Part shown: positions 53,667 through 64,000 of the stretch, piece by piece
How positions within the stretch are numbered: the first letter of the stretch is position 1
How the letters are laid out: each line of letters begins with the position of its first letter
Assembly: GCF_900403705.1 (NCBI RefSeq)
Contig: NZ_OUNR01000001.1
Location: 558,001 to 622,000 of the forward strand
From: Nitrospira lenta
GTDB taxonomy: Bacteria; Nitrospirota; Nitrospiria; Nitrospirales; Nitrospiraceae
DNA: 64,000 nucleotides
Reading direction: 5' to 3'
The notes under the pieces: model-generated
Told to the model about the DNA's origin: nothing
The model's input: only the letters and a program-made list of their open reading frames with translations
The model's database searches: none
Position numbers and translations under genes: made by a program

Positions 53667-53915
53667 ATGCTCAATCGAGTCTTGATTCCCGGCGAAGACG
53701 ATGCCGGAACCCATGTCGGCGGTGTGCATAAACGCCCCCCGATCCCGGATAACACGTTGAAGGCCGAATGTCCGAAATTCATGGCCCATGGCCCCTGCGG
53801 AGGCGTGCGCAAAGGAGGACTCTGCGAAGTCTATCCGGACATGAAATGTCCCTGGGTATCGATGTTTATTGAACTCGAAAAAATCGGGCAGACCGATTGG
53901 ATGAAACAACTCTAG
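53667..53915 (+). CDS. Stand-alone MTHFR C-terminal-domain protein
   Basis: An 82-residue protein with the pattern of the methylenetetrahydrofolate reductase C-terminal (MTHFR_C) domain: CPKFMAHGPCGGVRKGGLCEVYPDMKCPWV, four Cys likely forming a metal or cluster site. The domain normally accompanies MetF-type enzymes of acetogens and related organisms. Here it is free-standing with no metF next to it, so its partner is unknown. Confidence 0.78.
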   Translation: MLNRVLIPGEDDAGTHVGGVHKRPPIPDNTLKAECPKFMAHGPCGGVRKGGLCEVYPDMKCPWVSMFIELEKIGQTDWMKQL

Positions 53916-53925
53916 AAGACATGAG

Positions 53926-53946
53926 GCGTGACTCGTGAAACGTGAA
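53926..53946. repeat. Heptanucleotide repeats spanning the queF start
   Basis: GCGTGAC, TCGTGAA and ACGTGAA are consecutive 7-mers (53926-53946). They share the GTGA core with the array in the aclB-aclA spacer. The queF GTG start (53935) is within the second unit. Confidence 0.6.
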
Positions 53947-54351
53947 TCAGCGCGACGCACATCGAAAACGACAAAATTGGGGTACAACGAACGGCATGCG
54001 AAAAGCGGTATCACCGCGCCATTACCTAGCATCGAAACATTCCCGAACCAGTATAAGGGCTACGAAATCACGATTGAGATTCCCGAATACACCGCGATCT
54101 GCCCCAAAACCAACCTACCGGATTTCGGCACCGTGACCATTCACTACATGCCCAACAAAGCCTGCCTCGAACTCAAATCCCTCAAGATGTATATCCACGC
54201 CTACCGAGATCTCGGTATTTTCTATGAGAACGCCGTCAATCGGATCCTCCACGATGTCGTGGCATCCTGCCGGCCCGTCTGGGCCACCGTCACCGGCGGA
54301 TTTACCGCGCGCGGAGGCCTGTCGAGCAAAATCGAAGCGAAATACCCATAA
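53935..54351 (+). CDS. queF: NADPH-dependent 7-cyano-7-deazaguanine (preQ0) reductase
   Basis: A 138-residue QueF (type I, short form) that reduces preQ0 to preQ1 in queuosine synthesis. The catalytic Cys and Asp are in TAICPKTNLPDFGT, and the QueF signature is YMPNKACLELKSLKMY followed by YRDLGIFYENAVNRILHD. The open frame begins with GTG at 53935 inside a heptamer repeat; the first 15-20 residues are basic and not conserved, so the start is uncertain. Confidence 0.93.
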   Translation: MKRESARRTSKTTKLGYNERHAKSGITAPLPSIETFPNQYKGYEITIEIPEYTAICPKTNLPDFGTVTIHYMPNKACLELKSLKMYIHAYRDLGIFYENAVNRILHDVVASCRPVWATVTGGFTARGGLSSKIEAKYP

Positions 54352-54487
54352 AACATCAAAACCTCTCTGCCTCTGCTCCTCCCTAGCGACGCCCTCTTCC
54401 TTCTTGTCATCAACACACTCGTATCAAACATCTCGAAACCGGTCTCAGATGGGCCGGTGAGCTAAAACCCCGCGAAGTCTTGCAGAT

Positions 54488-54514
54488 TAAGCCCCTTCGG
54501 CCACCTGCCGATAA
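54488..54514 (+). promoter_or_regulatory. Sigma-28 (FliA)-type promoter upstream of the signalling operon
   Basis: TAAG (54488-54491), a 15-bp spacer and GCCGATAA (54507-54514) match the flagellar sigma-28 consensus TAAA-N15-GCCGATAA almost perfectly. A weaker overlapping match (TAAA 54463-54466, N15, GCAGATTA 54482-54489) lies just upstream. The start codon at 54568 is about 45 nt downstream. Confidence 0.7.
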
Positions 54515-54567
54515 GAAGGAGAGGGATCGGTCGCCGCTCCCATCTTTTGTTTTTATCGGGGAACCGC

Positions 54568-57500
54568 ATGACGCCATCGCTGAAACCGTCGACGGGAATA
54601 CAAACGCCTTCATCCTTCACCATCCGGCTTGGAATGCTCATGGGTGCTGCAATTCTCGCGACCGGCGGATTTACCCTCGCCGTCTACGACACCATTGAGA
54701 CCGTGCAAATTCGCGGACCGCTCTATACGCAAATCGTCGAAAGCAAAGATCTGGCGGCGAATGCACTCCCCCCCACACTGTATATCGTCGATTCCTATCT
54801 CGTGACACTGGAGCTGCTGAGCGCCTCCCCTTCAATGCGCACCGTGCTCGTGGAGCAATTCCGTCAACTCGAGCAAGCCTTCCTGACCAAGCAATCCGAA
54901 TGGCACACCCGCCTGCCCCCAGGACCGTTACGAGACACCCTCGCCGAATCGTCTGGACGGTGGGCACGAGAATTCTACGAACACTGGCATCGCAATTTCC
55001 TCCCCGCCCTTGAACGCGGGGATACCCGCGCCATGACAGATCTCGTGTTCGGTCCTCTCGGCTATCAGTTTGCACAGCACCGCCTGGCAATCACGAACCT
55101 CGTCCAGCTCGCCGACAGCCAACGCCGCCAAGCCGAAGAAGACGCCCATACCGTCCTGACCGCTAGAACGTATCTTCTCGGAAGCCTGGGCCTTGGCCTC
55201 ATCGGCGTAATTTTCCTCGTTGGCTGGTTGATCAACCGCCGGGTGAGCGCGCCTCTCCTGCTTAGCCTTCAGGATAGCGAAGAGCAGACCCGTTCCATTG
55301 TGGCCAACGCGCTAGATGCCATCATCGTCATGGACGATCAAGGACGGATTATCGACTGGAATCCACAGGCCGAACAGATCCTAGGGTGGACCAAAAGTGA
55401 AGTGCTTGGGCGAATACTCTCGGATACGATCATTCCCCCGCAATATCGCGAGGCTCACCGTGAAGGCTTACAACAGTACCTGGCCACGGGCAAAGGCCCG
55501 GCGCTAGGGAAACGGCTGGAATTAGTCGCCCTGCGCGCGGATGGGACCGAGTTTCCAATTGAACTGGCGATTACCCCACTCAAACTGACATCGCGGACAA
55601 CCTTTAGCGGATTCATCAGAGATATTTCCGAGAGAACGCAATGGGAAGAAAAGCTGCGCATCGTGGTGGAATCTGCGCCAAGCGGAATGGTGCTCGTCGA
55701 TCACTCGGGCATCATCCGCATGGTGAACGCTGAACTGGAACGAACCTTCGGCTATCCCCGCACCGAACTTTTGGGCCAGCCCATTGAAGTCCTGGTTCCA
55801 GAAGCGATCCGCCGCCAACATGTCAAAGATCGCACCGCATTTATGGCTCAGCCCCGCTCACGGGCAATGGGGACGGGACGTGAACTGAAGGGACGGCGAA
55901 AAGACGGCTCAGAGTTTCCCCTTGAAGTGGGACTGACCTCGGTGCAGACCGCAACCGGACTCATCATCATCGCAACGATCATGGATGTGACGGAGCGAAA
56001 GCAGATAGAAACCGCCCTCCGCCAGGCGAAGGAAACCGCCGAAGCCGCAAGTCTTGCCAAATCTCAGTTTCTTGCCAACATGAGCCACGAGATCAGGACC
56101 CCGATGAACGGCGTCCTTGGCATGGCGGAATTGCTGCTGAACTCGTCATTGACCGAAAGGCAGCGGCATCTTGCCGACAGTGTGCACCGCTCCGGGACCG
56201 CCTTACTCGGCATCATCAATGACATTTTGGACTTCTCGAAGATCGAGGCCGGCAAGCTGGTGCTGGAACAGATCGAGTTCGGGCTCCGGGATACGATCGC
56301 GGAAGCCGTCGAGCTTTTCGCCGAACCGGCCGGCGAAAAAGGGGTGGAGTTGACCTGCTACATTCCCGACAACATTCCAGACAATGTCATCGGCGACCCC
56401 GTCCGGCTGCGGCAAGTCCTCCTTAACCTCGTGGGGAACGCCGTGAAGTTCACTCCCCATGGCGAGGTGGCAGTCCGCGTCGCGCTCCTGAGGCAGGCAA
56501 ATGAGACGCTCCTGCTAAAAGTTGAGATTGCCGACACCGGATTTGGCATCCCCCCTCAGGTCCAATCACGGCTCTTCACCGCATTCTCCCAAGCCGACGG
56601 CTCCACGACCAGACGTTTTGGAGGCACCGGCCTGGGCCTGGCGATTGTCAAACAACTGGTCCTACTCATGGGCGGCGAGGTCGGCCTGACGAGCTCCTCG
56701 AAACAGGGATCGACGTTCTGGTTTACCACGCACCTGGGCTGGACCGCCCAGTACCCCCCCGTCGAGATACCCGACCGCGTGTTAGACCACATGAAAATCT
56801 TGGTGGTCGACGACAATGAGACCAACCGCTACATCCTGGAGTCCCACCTCACAGCCTGGGGGGCCGAGACCGTTACGGCCGAATCCGGCACCGTCGCGCT
56901 GGCCCACCTGCGCAAGCAGGCCGGCAACCAGACACCATTCGATTTAGCGATTCTCGATATTCACATGCCCGACATGGATGGCTTCACGCTCGCCCAAGCC
57001 ATCAAGGCGGATCCTACCATCCGCTCGGTGGATCTGCTCGCACTAAGTTCCATCGACAGCCAGGCCTACGGCAGGGACGGCGCAGTGCCGGAGTTTTCTG
57101 CCTGGCTCAGAAAACCTGTTCGGCAATCACTCCTGAAGGACTGCCTGCGCCGCCGACAGCAGGGACAGTCCGCGCTCCCAGCTGTTCAGACGCTGGCACC
57201 CCGGCCGACACCGGCGCAGGCCGGCTCGCCCCCACTCCGTGGCCACGTACTTCTCGTCGAAGACAATCCTGTCAATCGTGAAGTCTCCACCGGCATGCTC
57301 GAACTCCTGGGCTATCAGGTCACCGTCGCCGAAGACGGCCAGCAGGCCATCGCCGCGTCCACCACACAGTCCTTCCATCTCATTCTCATGGATTGCCAGA
57401 TGCCGATCATGGATGGATTCACGGCCACGGCAAAGATTCGCGCGCGAGAAGCACAGACGCCTCTCGCGCGAACCCCGATCATCGCGCTGACTGCCAATGC

Positions 57501-58053
57501 CATGGACGGTGATCGGGATCGCTGCCTGGAAGCGGGCATGGACGACTACCTCAGTAAACCATTTTCTCAACAGGCCCTGGGAGATCTGCTGTCTCGCTGG
57601 TGCCTTTCCCGAAACCAGGCGCAGGCATCTCCGGCTGGCATACCGATGGCAACACCAACAGCCAGCGAGCAACACCCATCGCCGACGACACACGTTGACC
57701 GCACCGCATGGGCCACGATCACCGCGCTCCAGCGACCGGATCAGCCGAATCTGCTGCACAAGACGATCGGTCTCTATCTCATGAGTTCCCAGGCCCAAAT
57801 CGACGGGCTCCGTCAGGCGCTTCAGGACGGGAGTCCTCAAGCCATGATCACTCAGGCCCACACGCTCAAATCATCGAGCGCCATGCTTGGAGCAACAAAC
57901 CTGGCCAACCTCGCAAGTCAACTGGAACAGGCGTGCCGAACCAATCACGTAGAGCACACCGATCGGCTGGTTGCGCGCATCGACGAAGAATATCAGCAGG
58001 TCTGTGCCATTTTTCGCCGTGAACTGACGGCATCATCTAAGGAGGCTGCATGA
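54568..58053 (+). CDS. Membrane hybrid histidine kinase (PAS-PAS-HisKA-HATPase-REC-REC-HPt)
   Basis: A 1161-residue protein. TM1 is at about 22-40, an extracytoplasmic helical sensor domain at about 41-199, TM2 at about 200-224, PAS domains at about 241-357 and 362-480, HisKA with the phospho-His in [12 protein letters not shown] (about 505), HATPase_c with GNAVKFTPHG and GGTGLGLAIVK, REC1 (ILVVDDNETN, LAILDIHMPDMDG), REC2 ([29 protein letters not shown]) and a C-terminal HPt with HTLKSSSAMLG. The complete phosphorelay could pass to a separate regulator. Start taken at ATG 54568 after GGGGAA. Overlaps the FIST gene by ATGA. Confidence 0.9.
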   Translation: MTPSLKPSTGIQTPSSFTIRLGMLMGAAILATGGFTLAVYDTIETVQIRGPLYTQIVESKDLAANALPPTLYIVDSYLVTLELLSASPSMRTVLVEQFRQLEQAFLTKQSEWHTRLPPGPLRDTLAESSGRWAREFYEHWHRNFLPALERGDTRAMTDLVFGPLGYQFAQHRLAITNLVQLADSQRRQAEEDAHTVLTARTYLLGSLGLGLIGVIFLVGWLINRRVSAPLLLSLQDSEEQTRSIVANALDAIIVMDDQGRIIDWNPQAEQILGWTKSEVLGRILSDTIIPPQYREAHREGLQQYLATGKGPALGKRLELVALRADGTEFPIELAITPLKLTSRTTFSGFIRDISERTQWEEKLRIVVESAPSGMVLVDHSGIIRMVNAELERTFGYPRTELLGQPIEVLVPEAIRRQHVKDRTAFMAQPRSRAMGTGRELKGRRKDGSEFPLEVGLTSVQTATGLIIIATIMDVTERKQIETALRQAKETAEAASLAKSQFLANMSHEIRTPMNGVLGMAELLLNSSLTERQRHLADSVHRSGTALLGIINDILDFSKIEAGKLVLEQIEFGLRDTIAEAVELFAEPAGEKGVELTCYIPDNIPDNVIGDPVRLRQVLLNLVGNAVKFTPHGEVAVRVALLRQANETLLLKVEIADTGFGIPPQVQSRLFTAFSQADGSTTRRFGGTGLGLAIVKQLVLLMGGEVGLTSSSKQGSTFWFTTHLGWTAQYPPVEIPDRVLDHMKILVVDDNETNRYILESHLTAWGAETVTAESGTVALAHLRKQAGNQTPFDLAILDIHMPDMDGFTLAQAIKADPTIRSVDLLALSSIDSQAYGRDGAVPEFSAWLRKPVRQSLLKDCLRRRQQGQSALPAVQTLAPRPTPAQAGSPPLRGHVLLVEDNPVNREVSTGMLELLGYQVTVAEDGQQAIAASTTQSFHLILMDCQMPIMDGFTATAKIRAREAQTPLARTPIIALTANAMDGDRDRCLEAGMDDYLSKPFSQQALGDLLSRWCLSRNQAQASPAGIPMATPTASEQHPSPTTHVDRTAWATITALQRPDQPNLLHKTIGLYLMSSQAQIDGLRQALQDGSPQAMITQAHTLKSSSAMLGATNLANLASQLEQACRTNHVEHTDRLVARIDEEYQQVCAIFRRELTASSKEAA

Positions 58054-59192
58054 AACTCTCGACCTTCACCTATCCGGCATCCCGTCAAACCCCGGTCGAG
58101 ACCTACCCGCTCACGGATCCGGCTCGCACACTTGTCATTCTGTTCGGCCCGTCGCATTTGCTGAATACGCCGGCTCCCATTCAAACAATCCTGGCCGCCT
58201 ACCCCGGCGCCGCAGCCATCGGCTGCTCCAGTTCAGGGGAAATCTTTGGCACGCAGGTTCAGGATGACACTCTGGTCGTCGGACTCTTAGAGTTCGGCTC
58301 CACCACGGTCCGAACCGCGTCTGCCCATGTCACCACTCCCGGCCATTCCTTCGAAGCCGCGCAAGCTCTGGCAACCCGCCTTATCGATCCGGCGCTCCGC
58401 GGCGTCTTGGTGCTCTCCGATGGACTAGGTGTCAACGGCAGCGAACTGATCCGTGGACTGAACACCGTACTCCCGCCACATGTCGTGGTCTCGGGCGGTT
58501 TGGCCGGCGACGGCAGCCGGTTCAAACAAACGTGGGTGGTGAAAGACGGGCTGCCCGTCTCTGGATACATCACCGCGGTAGGATTCTATGGCTCCGCGAT
58601 CCGGCTTACACATGGCTCCAAAGGCGGATGGGACCTCTTCGGACCGGAACGGCTCATCACTCGTTCACGCGGGAATGTCCTCTACGAACTGAACCAAAAA
58701 CCGGCGCTTCAGCTCTATAAAGACTACTTGGGCACACTCGCCAGCGGGCTGCCCGGCACCGCCCTCCACTTTCCGCTGGCGATCCGGCACACCCGAGACG
58801 AGACCAAACGCCTGGTCCGCACCATCCTGGCCATCGACGAAGACGCTCAGTCCCTGACATTCGCGGGCGATATGCCGGAAGGAGCCTATACCCAATTCAT
58901 GCGCGCCAATTTCGACCGCTTGATTCAAGGCGCCTCCGATGCCGCCACCCTGGCGGCGATACCGGGAGGCGACTCCACGCCAACTCTGTCGATTGCCATC
59001 AGCTGTGTCGGACGGCGCCTCGTGCTGGGAGAACGAACCGAAGAGGAAGTGGAAGCGGTCTTCGACATGTTGCCGAAAGGGGCCGCACAGATCGGGTTTT
59101 ACTCGTATGGCGAGATCTCTCCCTACAGCACGGGACACTGCGATCTCCACAATCAAACCATGACCCTGACGACAATTTCAGAGGCCGCCTGA
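58050..59192 (+). CDS. FIST-domain sensory protein
   Basis: A 380-residue cytoplasmic protein with a FIST_N domain (residues about 30-230, with AIGCSSSGEIFG and VVSGGLAGDGSRF) and a FIST_C domain (about 230-370, ending with IGFYSYGEISPY). FIST proteins are thought to bind small ligands such as amino acids and usually sit with chemotaxis or kinase genes. It lies between two hybrid kinases with an ATGA overlap at its start, so I infer that it provides ligand input to one of them. Confidence 0.92.
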   Translation: MKLSTFTYPASRQTPVETYPLTDPARTLVILFGPSHLLNTPAPIQTILAAYPGAAAIGCSSSGEIFGTQVQDDTLVVGLLEFGSTTVRTASAHVTTPGHSFEAAQALATRLIDPALRGVLVLSDGLGVNGSELIRGLNTVLPPHVVVSGGLAGDGSRFKQTWVVKDGLPVSGYITAVGFYGSAIRLTHGSKGGWDLFGPERLITRSRGNVLYELNQKPALQLYKDYLGTLASGLPGTALHFPLAIRHTRDETKRLVRTILAIDEDAQSLTFAGDMPEGAYTQFMRANFDRLIQGASDAATLAAIPGGDSTPTLSIAISCVGRRLVLGERTEEEVEAVFDMLPKGAAQIGFYSYGEISPYSTGHCDLHNQTMTLTTISEAA

Positions 59193-59200
59193 GACCGAGT

Positions 59201-62200
59201 ATGCACCCGCTCCTGCAACGACAACTCAAACGGTTGGGGCTCGACCCGGTGACGGGCCCCACGGACTCGGCAGGCTGGCGCGCCATGCTCGATCGCGTCA
59301 GCCTCAGCTATACCGAAAACGATCAAGGCCGAGCCCTGTTGGAACAATCCCTCGACGTCACCTCTCGGGAGATGCAGGACCTATACGAAGACCTCCGGCG
59401 ATCCGGAGAAACAGAGCTGGCAGGAGAGCGCACGAAACTCGAAGCCGTGCTCCACTCACTCGGCGACGGGCTCTGCGTCGTCGATGCCCAGTGGAAGATC
59501 GTCCTCATGAATCCGCAAGCCGAAGAATTATTCGGCGCACCCCTGGCGAGTCTGGCCGGGCAGCCGGCGTACCGCTTCCTCTCGCCGGGTCCCGAAGAGT
59601 TCAGTCACGACTGTCTCATCACGGATACCTCGATCCCGCCGCTCGAACAAGGCCGTCCCTTCCGCACCGATGGCGGTATTCTCTTGCGGAACGATGGCCA
59701 GATGGTGCCGATCTCGCTCGCAGTCACACCTGTCTCAACCCAAGGCGTGGTGAACGGCGCCGTGCTGGTATTCCGGAATATCACCGCTCAAAAGCAGGCG
59801 GACGAACAGCGGACAGAGAGCGCATCGCTGCTCCGGCGGGTGCAGGCCGGGCTGCTGGAATTAGCCACGAATACAGATCTCTATCGCGGAGAACGCTCCG
59901 ACGCCTTTCATGTCATTACGCGAGTCGCGTCACAGAGCCTCCGCGTGGCCCGCGCCAGCATCTGGTTTTTTACGGAGGGGCACGCCGCCATTCGCTGCGC
60001 CGACCTGTTCGAACAAGCAACCGACACGTATTCGAACGGACTCGAACTGCCCGCGACCAGTTTCCCTCGCTATTTTGAAGCACTCGCGGCGGAAGAGGTC
60101 ATCGTCGCCAACCAGGCCCAAACCGACCCCATCACATCCGAATTCACAACCAACTATCTCATCCCGCTCGGGATCACCTCCATGATGGACATGCCCATTT
60201 GGGCTGAAGGCACGATGGTCGGCGTCATCTGCCATGAACATATCGGACCCGCCAGAGTCTGGACGGCGGAAGAACAGCAATTCGCCACCTCGGTGGCGAA
60301 TACGGTGGCCTTGGTCTTGGAAGCCACGGATCGCCGCAAGGCCGAGCAGGCACTCCGCGACCTCTCCTCATTCCAGAGAGCCATGCTGGACAATGCCGGG
60401 CATGCCATTATTTCCACCACGCCCGAGGGGATTATTCGTCTCTTCAATCCTGCGGCTGAATCGTTACTCGGCTATTGCGCGGACGCACTGATCGGCATAC
60501 AGACGCCCGCCTTGTTTCATGACCCCGAGGAAGTCGCCGCGCGCGCACGGCTCTTCTCGGCAGAACTCAACCGCTCGATCGAACCGGGGTTCGACGTCTT
60601 GGTCGAAAAGAGCCGGCTGGGTCTGCACAATGAGCATGAGTGGACCTATATCCGGAAGGATGGCACTCGCCTGACGGTGTTGCTGAACATCACCGCGATT
60701 CAAAATGCAGACGGACACATCACCTCGTTTTTAGGAATCGCCTCAAACATTACCTCGCTGAAGATCGTTGAACGCGAGCTGATCACGGCCAAGGAAGCGG
60801 CAGAGACCGCGAATATCGCCAAATCGCAATTTCTCGCGAATATGAGCCACGAAATCAGAACCCCCATGAACGGCATCCTCGGGCTGTCGGCGCTCTTGCG
60901 ACAAACGCCCTTGAGCCCCAAGCAGCAACGCTTGACGGACACGATTGTACGATCCGGCAACTCGCTCCTGGACATCCTCAACGACATTCTCGATTTTTCG
61001 AAGATCGAAGCGGGCAAGCTGGAACTGGAACACACCGACTTCCACTTGCGCATGCTGGTCGACGACGTACTCGAATTGTTTGCGCCCTCCGCGCATCGGA
61101 AGCATCTGGAGCTCATTGCCGACAGCGCCGACAGCGTCCCCGTCTTCGTCAAGGGAGACCCCGCTCGACTCCGCCAGATTTTGATCAATCTGATCGGCAA
61201 TGCCATTAAGTTCACGGCTCAGGGTGAAGTGATCGTGAATATCGTCAGTATTGCGGAAGGAAACCACCAATCCGTCCTCTGCTTCTCAGTCAAAGACTCC
61301 GGCGTCGGCATCACCCCCGATGCCTTGCACAACATTTTTCAACCGTTTTCACAAGCCGATGGATCGACGACGCGAAAATACGGCGGCACGGGACTCGGCC
61401 TCACCATTGCCAAACAACTCGTGGCGTTTATGGGAGGAGAAATCTGGGCTGAGAGTCAGGTCGGATCGGGGGCGACCTTCTTCTTTACCGTGCACCTCGC
61501 CCATTCGTACCTGAGTGGCATCGGCACGCCAGATTTACACCAGATCCTGCCAACCCAGCGCGTCCTGGTCGTGGATGACAGCCGCCCCGCCCGCCTCTCA
61601 CTGGACCGCCAACTGCGCAGCTGGGGCATCCCCTCTACGGTGGCTGAGTCAGGCCCCGTCGCTCTGCCCCTGCTGGCAGAAGCGATAGAAGATGGCCGCC
61701 CCTATGATACGGTCGTCATCGATTTGGACATGCCCGGCATGAACGGACTCGACACCGTTCGCGCCATCCACGACACACTTCAGCGCCATCGCCCCCGCGT
61801 GATCCTCATGACACCGGTCGAGCGAGTGGACGTCGCGGAAGACCACACCGGGCTGATCGCGGCCACCCTCACAAAGCCCGTGAGGCCCTCCGACCTTCAC
61901 CGAGCCCTCTCCGGCCAAACCGTCTTGGTCCCCACGTCCCCTCATCCCCATGAGCAGGATGACCGGACACCCGCCACACCTCAGGGCTCGATTCTCCTCG
62001 CGGAAGACAACGCCGTGAACCAAGAGGTCACACTGGGCATGCTAGAGGTGCTGGGATGCACCGCCACAGCCGTTGAGAATGGACGACGTGCGATCAGCCT
62101 GCTGGCGAGCCAGCCCTTTTCCGTCATCCTCATGGATTGCCAAATGCCGGAGATGGATGGATTTGAAGCCACCCGGGTCATCCGTAAACAGGAAGAGAAT

Positions 62201-62791
62201 ACCGGCAGGAGGATTCCAATCGTGGCCCTCACCGCCCATGCCCTGCAAGGCGATCGGGAGCTCTGCCTTGCGGTCGGGATGGACGACTATCTGAGTAAAC
62301 CCTTTACGATCGAACAGCTGAGGACCGTGATTCATCGATGGCTACCGACTTCTCCGCAATCGACTCCAACGGATTCACCGCACCCCCCCCTCGCGTCCTC
62401 ACCGGCTCCGGCCCTTCAACCCACTGAATCTCCAGTAGATCCAAAGAGCTGGGACAGCATCACCAACCTCCAGCGCCCCGGCCAGCCTGATCTGCTGGCC
62501 AAAGTCATCGGCCTCTATCTCAAGGATTCGCAAGCGTTGGTCGATAAGATACTAGCGGCCACGGCAGAGAAAGACTTCGCCCCTCTGCGGGACACCGCCC
62601 ACAGCTTGAAGTCGCGCAGTGCGACGCTCGGAGCCTGGCAGGTCGCGGAGCTGTGCAAACAGTTGGAAACGGGAGCTCGCGAGCAAACCTTAGCCTGGCC
62701 AGAAGCCGAACGGACGGCCAAGCAGCTACAACAGACCTTCACCGCGACCTGCACCATCTTTGAAAATGAACGACAGAGGAGAGCCGCATAA
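59201..62791 (+). CDS. Cytoplasmic hybrid histidine kinase (PAS-GAF-PAS-HisKA-HATPase-REC-REC-HPt)
   Basis: A 1196-residue protein without clear TM helices. After a helical N-terminal part come PAS1 (about 80-200), a GAF domain (about 215-385), PAS2 (about 390-515), HisKA with [12 protein letters not shown] (about 550), HATPase_c ([21 protein letters not shown]), REC1 ([24 protein letters not shown]), REC2 ([29 protein letters not shown]) and HPt ([11 protein letters not shown]). REC1 has Ala-Thr-Leu-Thr-Lys-Pro at the conserved Lys, so it may still be active. Its catalytic half is similar to the first kinase (paralogues). The next gene starts directly after its stop. Confidence 0.9.
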
Positions 62792-64000
62792 ATGAATGCT
62801 ACCCCACTAGCCCTTATTGTTGACGACGACATCACCTTGCGCGTCCTCGCGCGGGAAGCGCTGGAACAAGCCGGGTGCCGCGTTGAAGATGCCGCAACGG
62901 GACAAGAAGCGCTCGACGCCTTTCAACGAGAGACACCCGATATCATCCTTTTGGATGTCGTCATGCCGGGGATGGACGGATTCGCTACCTGCGCGGCCCT
63001 TCGGAAACTGCCATGCGGAGCCTCCGTGCCCATTCTCATCATGACCGGCCTCGACGACGTGAAGTCCATCACCACGGCGTACGACGCCGGCGCAACCGAC
63101 TTTGTGACGAAGCCGTGGAACGCCCTCGTGCTCAGCCACCGGGTCCGCTATATGCTGCGAGCCAGCCAAGCCGTGACGGAACTCCTGGAGCGAGAGATGA
63201 GCCTGGCTGAAGCCCAGCGGATCGCCCGCCTGGGCAACTGGCGCTGGAACTTGGCGACGAACCGGTTTATCGCCTCTACCGAAACGTTCCGCATTCTGGG
63301 CATTCATGCGGACCCCTATTCCACAACGCTGTCGTTTGAGGAATTCGTCAGCCATATTCACGAAGCGGATCGGCCGGCGGTCGAGGCCGGCATCCGCCAA
63401 GCGATTGCCACGGGAGCCCCATTTCGCCAGGACCATCGCGTCCACATGCCCACAGGCGATACCCGAATCGTGCATCACTATGCCGAGGTAGCCTTCGAAC
63501 AAGGCGGCGCAGCCACCAGCGTCGTCGGGACGATTCAAGATATTACCGATCAGAAAAAAGCCGAAGCCCAGATTCATTTTCTGTCAAACTACGACCGCCT
63601 CACCCAACTACCCAATCGCCAACTGTTCCAGGATCGTGTCACCCAAGCCCTGGCCATACAGAAACGTCATGACACCAACGACGCCATTCTCCTCGTCAAT
63701 CTCGACCGATTCCAACGCTTTAACGATACCCTCGGCCCAAAATACGGTGATGCGATTCTCCGCGAAGTGGCCGAACGACTGCTCCATTGCGTCCGCCAGT
63801 CCGACTCAGTGGGCTGGCACGAGGATCAGGAGCCTGTCACCCTCTCCCGGCTGGGCGGGGACGAATTCACCGTGCTCCTGACCCATCTGGCTTCAGCACA
63901 GAGTGCCGCGAAGGTCACGCAGCGGATTCTGGAATCTCTCCGTGAGCCCTATCACATCGACGGACGCCAGGTGGTGGTCACAGCCAGCATCGGCATTGCG
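62792..64000 (+). CDS. REC-PAS-GGDEF response regulator (diguanylate cyclase), 3' part beyond the window
   Basis: It starts at ATG 62792, one base after the stop of the kinase, and stays open to the window end (403 codons), so the product continues. The receiver domain (residues 6-120: LIVDDDITLR, IILLDVVMPGMDG, LIMTGLDD, FVTKPW) is complete. A PAS domain lies at about 140-260 (LGNWRWNLATNRFIASTETF), followed by the GGDEF domain with FLSNYDRLTQLPNRQLF and SRLGGDEFTVLL. The signature is intact, so it should make cyclic di-GMP. The RxxD inhibitory site expected five residues ahead of GGDEF is missing (EPVTLSRLGG). An EAL domain could follow outside the window. Confidence 0.92.
   Translation, partial: MNATPLALIVDDDITLRVLAREALEQAGCRVEDAATGQEALDAFQRETPDIILLDVVMPGMDGFATCAALRKLPCGASVPILIMTGLDDVKSITTAYDAGATDFVTKPWNALVLSHRVRYMLRASQAVTELLEREMSLAEAQRIARLGNWRWNLATNRFIASTETFRILGIHADPYSTTLSFEEFVSHIHEADRPAVEAGIRQAIATGAPFRQDHRVHMPTGDTRIVHHYAEVAFEQGGAATSVVGTIQDITDQKKAEAQIHFLSNYDRLTQLPNRQLFQDRVTQALAIQKRHDTNDAILLVNLDRFQRFNDTLGPKYGDAILREVAERLLHCVRQSDSVGWHEDQEPVTLSRLGGDEFTVLLTHLASAQSAAKVTQRILESLREPYHIDGRQVVVTASIGIA

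Follow-up and report, generated by a model that had tools for sequence, protein, structure and literature searches.

A predicted FliA (sigma-28) promoter ahead of a FIST, hybrid-kinase and GGDEF-EAL operon in Nitrospira lenta

Genes whose products make, break or bind cyclic-di-GMP lie behind sigma-28 promoters in Escherichia coli (the FliA-dependent yhjH and ycgR) and Pseudomonas putida (bifA), and the flagellar cascade thereby sets the level of the messenger (PMC5300878). In a second kind of described system a FIST-domain protein, a kinase and a response regulator work together: in Legionella pneumophila NosP activates the kinase NahK, which phosphorylates a REC-GGDEF-EAL regulator, the NosP-NahK-NarR proteins forming one system (PMC8846402). 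The nosRPK operon of Burkholderia pseudomallei likewise joins a FIST sensor, a kinase and a response regulator whose output domain is of a cyclic-di-GMP type, and its mutants are altered in swimming and biofilm formation (PMC12570481). In the literature that we searched, no paper mentions the FIST domain together with Nitrospira.

The window, by which we mean the whole 64 kb stretch of N. lenta DNA analyzed here, contains a gene set with features of both kinds of system (Table 1). As the initial annotation had proposed, a FIST/hybrid-kinase/GGDEF operon lies downstream of the sigma-28-like site, and its genes are read in the order HK1 (a hybrid histidine kinase), FIST, HK2 (a second hybrid kinase) and a REC-PAS-GGDEF-EAL response regulator; the intergenic gaps are -4, 8 and 0 nt, and it is therefore likely that the four form a single operon. 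The GGDEF, EAL and receiver signatures of the encoded proteins appear intact by eye, and the N-terminal sensor region of HK1 has no match in Pfam. The FIST protein has the FIST_N-FIST_C architecture of NosP, and its gene stands alongside genes for a kinase and a REC-GGDEF-EAL protein, as in operons of the NosP-NahK-NarR type. The resemblance does not extend to the curated cut-offs: against the NosP equivalog model the FIST protein scores 54.2 bits where 450 is needed, and we reject NosP identity for it on this basis, while HK2 scores 191 against the NahK/ErcS model, whose cut-off is 400. A PDB search with the FIST protein found no sequence relative. The N. lenta operon differs further from the Legionella system in having an extra hybrid kinase in front and a putative FliA-type promoter, and from nosRPK in that the latter has a degenerate HD-GYP output rather than GGDEF-EAL, and a single kinase without a recognized sensor domain. 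The contrast with yhjH, ycgR and bifA is that FliA is predicted here to control an entire phosphorelay, in which an auxiliary sensor and two hybrid kinases are encoded in one operon along with a GGDEF-EAL regulator.

Table 1. Features of the window (position 1 is its first nucleotide) and sigma-28-like sites assigned to the predicted FliA regulon
Feature	Position or locus	Strand	Remarks
queF (preQ1 synthase)	53935..54351	+	upstream neighbor and synteny anchor; outside the operon
TAAA-N15-GCAGATTA, second site of the initial annotation	54463..54489	+	chance level, not conserved
Putative -35 element, TTAAG	54487..54491	+	TAAG at 54488-54491; genus consensus TCAAG/TAAAG
Putative -10 element, GCCGATAA	54507..54514	+	sigma-28 octamer, 0 mismatches; 15-nt spacer from TAAG
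HK1, hybrid histidine kinase	54568..58053	+	2 PAS, HisKA, HATPase, 2 receivers, Hpt
FIST_N-FIST_C protein	58050..59192	+	start overlaps HK1 stop
HK2, hybrid histidine kinase	59201..62791	+	PAS, GAF, PAS, HisKA, HATPase, 2 receivers, Hpt
REC-PAS-GGDEF-EAL response regulator	62792..64000	+	runs past the window; L015:9293-11431, 712 aa
Site before fliC	L074		100 nt upstream
Site before flgM	L075		79 nt upstream
Site before MCP (chemoreceptor) gene	L071		
Site before STAS gene adjoining chemoreceptor gene	L086		one mismatch
Site before REC-HD-GYP gene	L076, G000:C16:294434-294460		48 nt upstream, good match

The candidate promoter is the sequence T-TAAG-N15-GCCGATAA at 54487-54514, between queF and HK1, which is present as the initial annotation had it and does come near the FliA consensus. 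Its -10 element matches the E. coli-type FliA octamer perfectly and ends 53 nt before the HK1 ATG, in keeping with the earlier claim that it lies at the right distance from the first gene. With a CCGATAA -10, a -35 of the T(A/C)AAG type and a spacing of about 15 nt it has the parts of a sigma-28 promoter, but the -35 is weak, being among the poorer versions (TTAAGCCC in place of TCAAGTTT), and this counts against a FliA promoter. Using a scoring matrix built from eight sites, all outside the window locus, we find that the site scores 16.8 and is the top site on both strands of the entire window; the training sites score 20.7-27.2, and the window site is thus convincing but weaker than these because of its -35. 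A second, weaker site that had been proposed just upstream does not survive the same treatment: it scores 5.3, which is no better than chance (scores of at least 6 arise at about 7e-4 per base), it has no counterpart in the aligned relatives, and we reject it as a promoter. We note also that the CCGATAA of the -10 element (54508-54514) recurs inverted as TTATCGG at 54553-54559, just 5' of the start codon; this repeat is not kept in one of the relatives (G064) and is probably due to chance. An Rfam scan around the leader found no RNA element.

The same interval bears on one alternative, that the resemblance is accidental and that transcription of the operon comes from a housekeeping promoter that escaped recognition or runs on from queF, which lies 216 bp upstream in the same orientation. 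Read-through is favored by the co-directional orientation of queF and by an interval in which the plus strand has no terminator-like site. Against an accident, when the 216-bp intergenic region was shuffled 5000 times with its dinucleotides preserved, the score of 16.8 was reached only twice, and the opposite strand of the region scores 1.5 at best. Against a housekeeping start, a search of 53900-54700 for sigma-70-like promoters found none, using a consensus that may not fit Nitrospira. Comparison with other genomes also speaks to this alternative. A search with the FIST protein finds close homologues (80–88%) in other Nitrospira, mostly with common neighbors, namely a 2-oxoacid-oxidoreductase-type cluster, queF, FIST, HK2, a gene for either a GGDEF-EAL protein or a kinase, and an apaH-like gene. 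A sigma-28-like site stands at the head of the syntenic operon in 11 of 13 genomes, the window genome counted (scores 13.5–25.4; the exceptions are G047, which is L092, and L099), and when the sites are stacked the boxes are constant and the spacers and flanks vary. In G022 and G064 HK1 has TAAAGCTC-N-TCCGATAAGA upstream; in other relatives the site lies behind queF, for example TCAAGTTACGCTCAATAACCGCCGATAA. In G022 and G064 a further site, TCAAGTTAC...ACCGATAC, lies 3' of queF before genes for a TonB receptor, a YfiR-like protein and a CHASE8 kinase.

We scored the 400 bases behind queF at 30 queF loci. The six loci with the operon score 13.5–20.3, and none of the 23 without it scores above 8.5; in G072 (L204), where only a C-terminal remnant of FIST is left and HK2 follows, a decayed site behind queF scores 11.0. 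The site therefore tracks the operon and belongs to it rather than to queF. A close FIST homologue is present in 35 of 79 genomes of the genus, all 35 of which have fliA, and in none of the nine genomes in which fliA was not detected (hypergeometric 0.003, a value that takes no account of kinship or of incomplete genomes); the counts for conservation and co-occurrence are not independent because the genomes are related. With the constancy confined to the boxes and the site missing behind operon-less queF, accidental resemblance with transcription from elsewhere seems very improbable, and we consider it highly probable that 54487-54514 is a FliA promoter driving the four-gene operon.

The input end of the operon is swapped between species. 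In relatives (L096:681-6276, L098:2410-10004, L202:8202-14094) the genes between queF and FIST encode TonB-dependent receptors, a CHASE8 hybrid kinase and either a YfiR/HmsC-like protein or an ABC substrate-binding one, and the window operon has lost these genes or never had them. The additions recall periplasmic cyclic-di-GMP control of the YfiR/HmsC type, in that a YfiR/HmsC-like protein (DUF4154) accompanies the CHASE8 hybrid kinase; they differ in that a hybrid kinase, not a diguanylate cyclase, serves as the membrane partner, and they are absent from the window version.

A FliA promoter presupposes FliA, and the N. lenta genome (3,756,190 bases in 22 contigs) encodes a single protein above the FliA/WhiG cut-off (251.8 bits against 189.6), which aligns with solved FliA proteins over almost its full length. 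Its gene sits in a run of flagellar genes recognized by eye (fliM to flhB, flhA, flhF, flhG), with flgM, above its own curated cut-off, about 6 kb downstream; the genome thus encodes both FliA and FlgM. We searched this genome for further sites with sequence patterns. The strict E. coli-type pattern TAAN-N14-16-GCCGATAA has three matches, two of them without a convincing gene, and the E. coli consensus misses several flagellin loci; the flagellin genes of two relatives have TCAAGTCCCTCTTGATTCAGCCGATAA upstream, and the genus form is TCAAG-NCCGATAA. The pattern TNAAG-N13-15-NCCGATAA has 11 matches against seven for a reversed control, a comparison that leaves room for accidental resemblance and makes the bare counts weak, so that the evidence is carried by position and neighbors. 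Nine of the 11 are intergenic with an ORF start downstream, and 7.2% of the genome is non-coding (coding total from PMC6251164); the binomial value of 2e-9 overstates the case because non-coding DNA is richer in A+T. Besides the window operon, the genes behind these nine are fliC, flgM, those for a chemoreceptor and a REC-HD-GYP protein, one on the flagellar contig for a small helix-turn-helix protein, two that are uncharacterized and a class II aldolase gene, whose site may be a chance match. The motif is thus found before genuine flagellar and chemotaxis genes (fliC, flgM, MCP and STAS), as would be expected were the initial annotation right in tying the operon to flagellar or chemotaxis expression, a link to which fliA, this regulon context, the conservation of the site in relatives and its absence behind operon-less queF all point.

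The REC-HD-GYP gene is a second candidate cyclic-di-GMP member of the FliA regulon. A sigma-28-like site at G000:C1:344134-344161 (L067) lies before a 61-aa ORF without a Pfam match, and one at C1:303421-303448 (L066) before a gene whose 341-aa product has no clear family.

N. lenta BS10 is recorded as non-motile though flagellar genes are present (PMC6251164), which counts against the FliA-promoter reading and raises the possibility that an ancestral FliA promoter persists here as a relic with a drifted -35. The window site is indeed weaker than in several relatives, and in G072, where most of FIST has been lost, the site has decayed along with it. Yet fliA, flgM and the neighboring flagellar genes that we looked at are unbroken open reading frames, the fliC and flgM sites are intact, and the -10 octamer has no mismatch; we regard a relic as unlikely, though less so than accidental resemblance. 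A further possibility, compatible with the main explanation, is that FliA adds to a housekeeping start, as in P. putida bifA, which has both sigma-70 and sigma-28 starts (PMC5300878). The two FliA-like sites in each of G022 and G064 show that multiple promoters occur at the locus, but the failure to find a sigma-70-like site upstream of HK1 weighs against such an arrangement, with the same reservation about the consensus, and we hold it only tentatively alongside the FliA promoter.

FIST operons of about 60% identity, located elsewhere in other Nitrospira, have a different conserved element, TCAAGTTT-N12-(A/G)CCGA(A/G)AAA, upstream of FIST at 13 loci (L103, L112, L121, L124, L126, L127, L129, L131, L132, L135, L138, L151 and L156; for example L129:9740-9767). 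It is possibly a variant sigma-28 promoter: the -35 is ideal, but the -10 is off consensus and conservation runs on downstream (a GTA follows), making the element suggestive only. Separately, a sigma-28-like TAAAGAACT-N-TTCCGATAA occurs at L129:17542 on the minus strand, about 7 kb past FIST and near response-regulator-like genes, and is kept at the equivalent place in L127, L128, L130, L135, L151 and L156. With at least two unrelated FIST loci having TCAAG-type promoters (the second with a CCGAAAA -10), and the module found only in genomes with fliA, one may speculate that in Nitrospira the flagellar class-III regulon generally includes FIST-kinase-cyclic-di-GMP modules; nitrifiers would then couple swimming to the perception of a signal, for instance NO. 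We think this generalization rather doubtful at present.

What sequence shows directly for the window operon is a conserved site, a genome with fliA and flgM, a regulon around the same motif and the domain make-up of the encoded proteins. Most likely the operon is of flagellar class III and its phosphorelay tunes cyclic-di-GMP. RNA polymerase with FliA would start about 47 nt before HK1, and the transcript would span HK1, the FIST sensor protein, HK2 and the REC-PAS-GGDEF-EAL gene. Once the hook-basal body is finished FlgM would be exported, freeing FliA, and the operon would be expressed with flagellin and the chemoreceptors, making it FliA-dependent in the cell. The FIST protein, on sensing a ligand that may be heme or NO, would modulate one or both kinases, and the phosphorelay would set the balance of GGDEF and EAL activity. 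Swimming cells could in this way adjust cyclic-di-GMP and change over between swimming and attachment. FliA-driven transcription is strongly predicted, whereas we infer FlgM control and transcription of the genes as an operon and, from knowledge of the families, the signaling steps (the ligand, the phosphotransfer and whether the output raises or lowers cyclic-di-GMP); taken alone, the signaling role has roughly even chances of being right, and NO is a possible but rather uncertain ligand.

Nitrospira are widespread nitrite oxidizers of flocs and biofilms, and little is known of how they choose between a swimming and an attached life. A link from FliA to cyclic-di-GMP genes is already known in kind, and the Nitrospira case adds an unusually clear comparative record together with a first predicted FliA regulon for N. 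lenta. A FliA-controlled sensor-kinase-cyclic-di-GMP operon would be a concrete link from the flagellar cascade to the sessile switch, and the pattern described here suggests that in N. lenta and most of its operon-bearing relatives this pathway may be switched on along with the genes for swimming.
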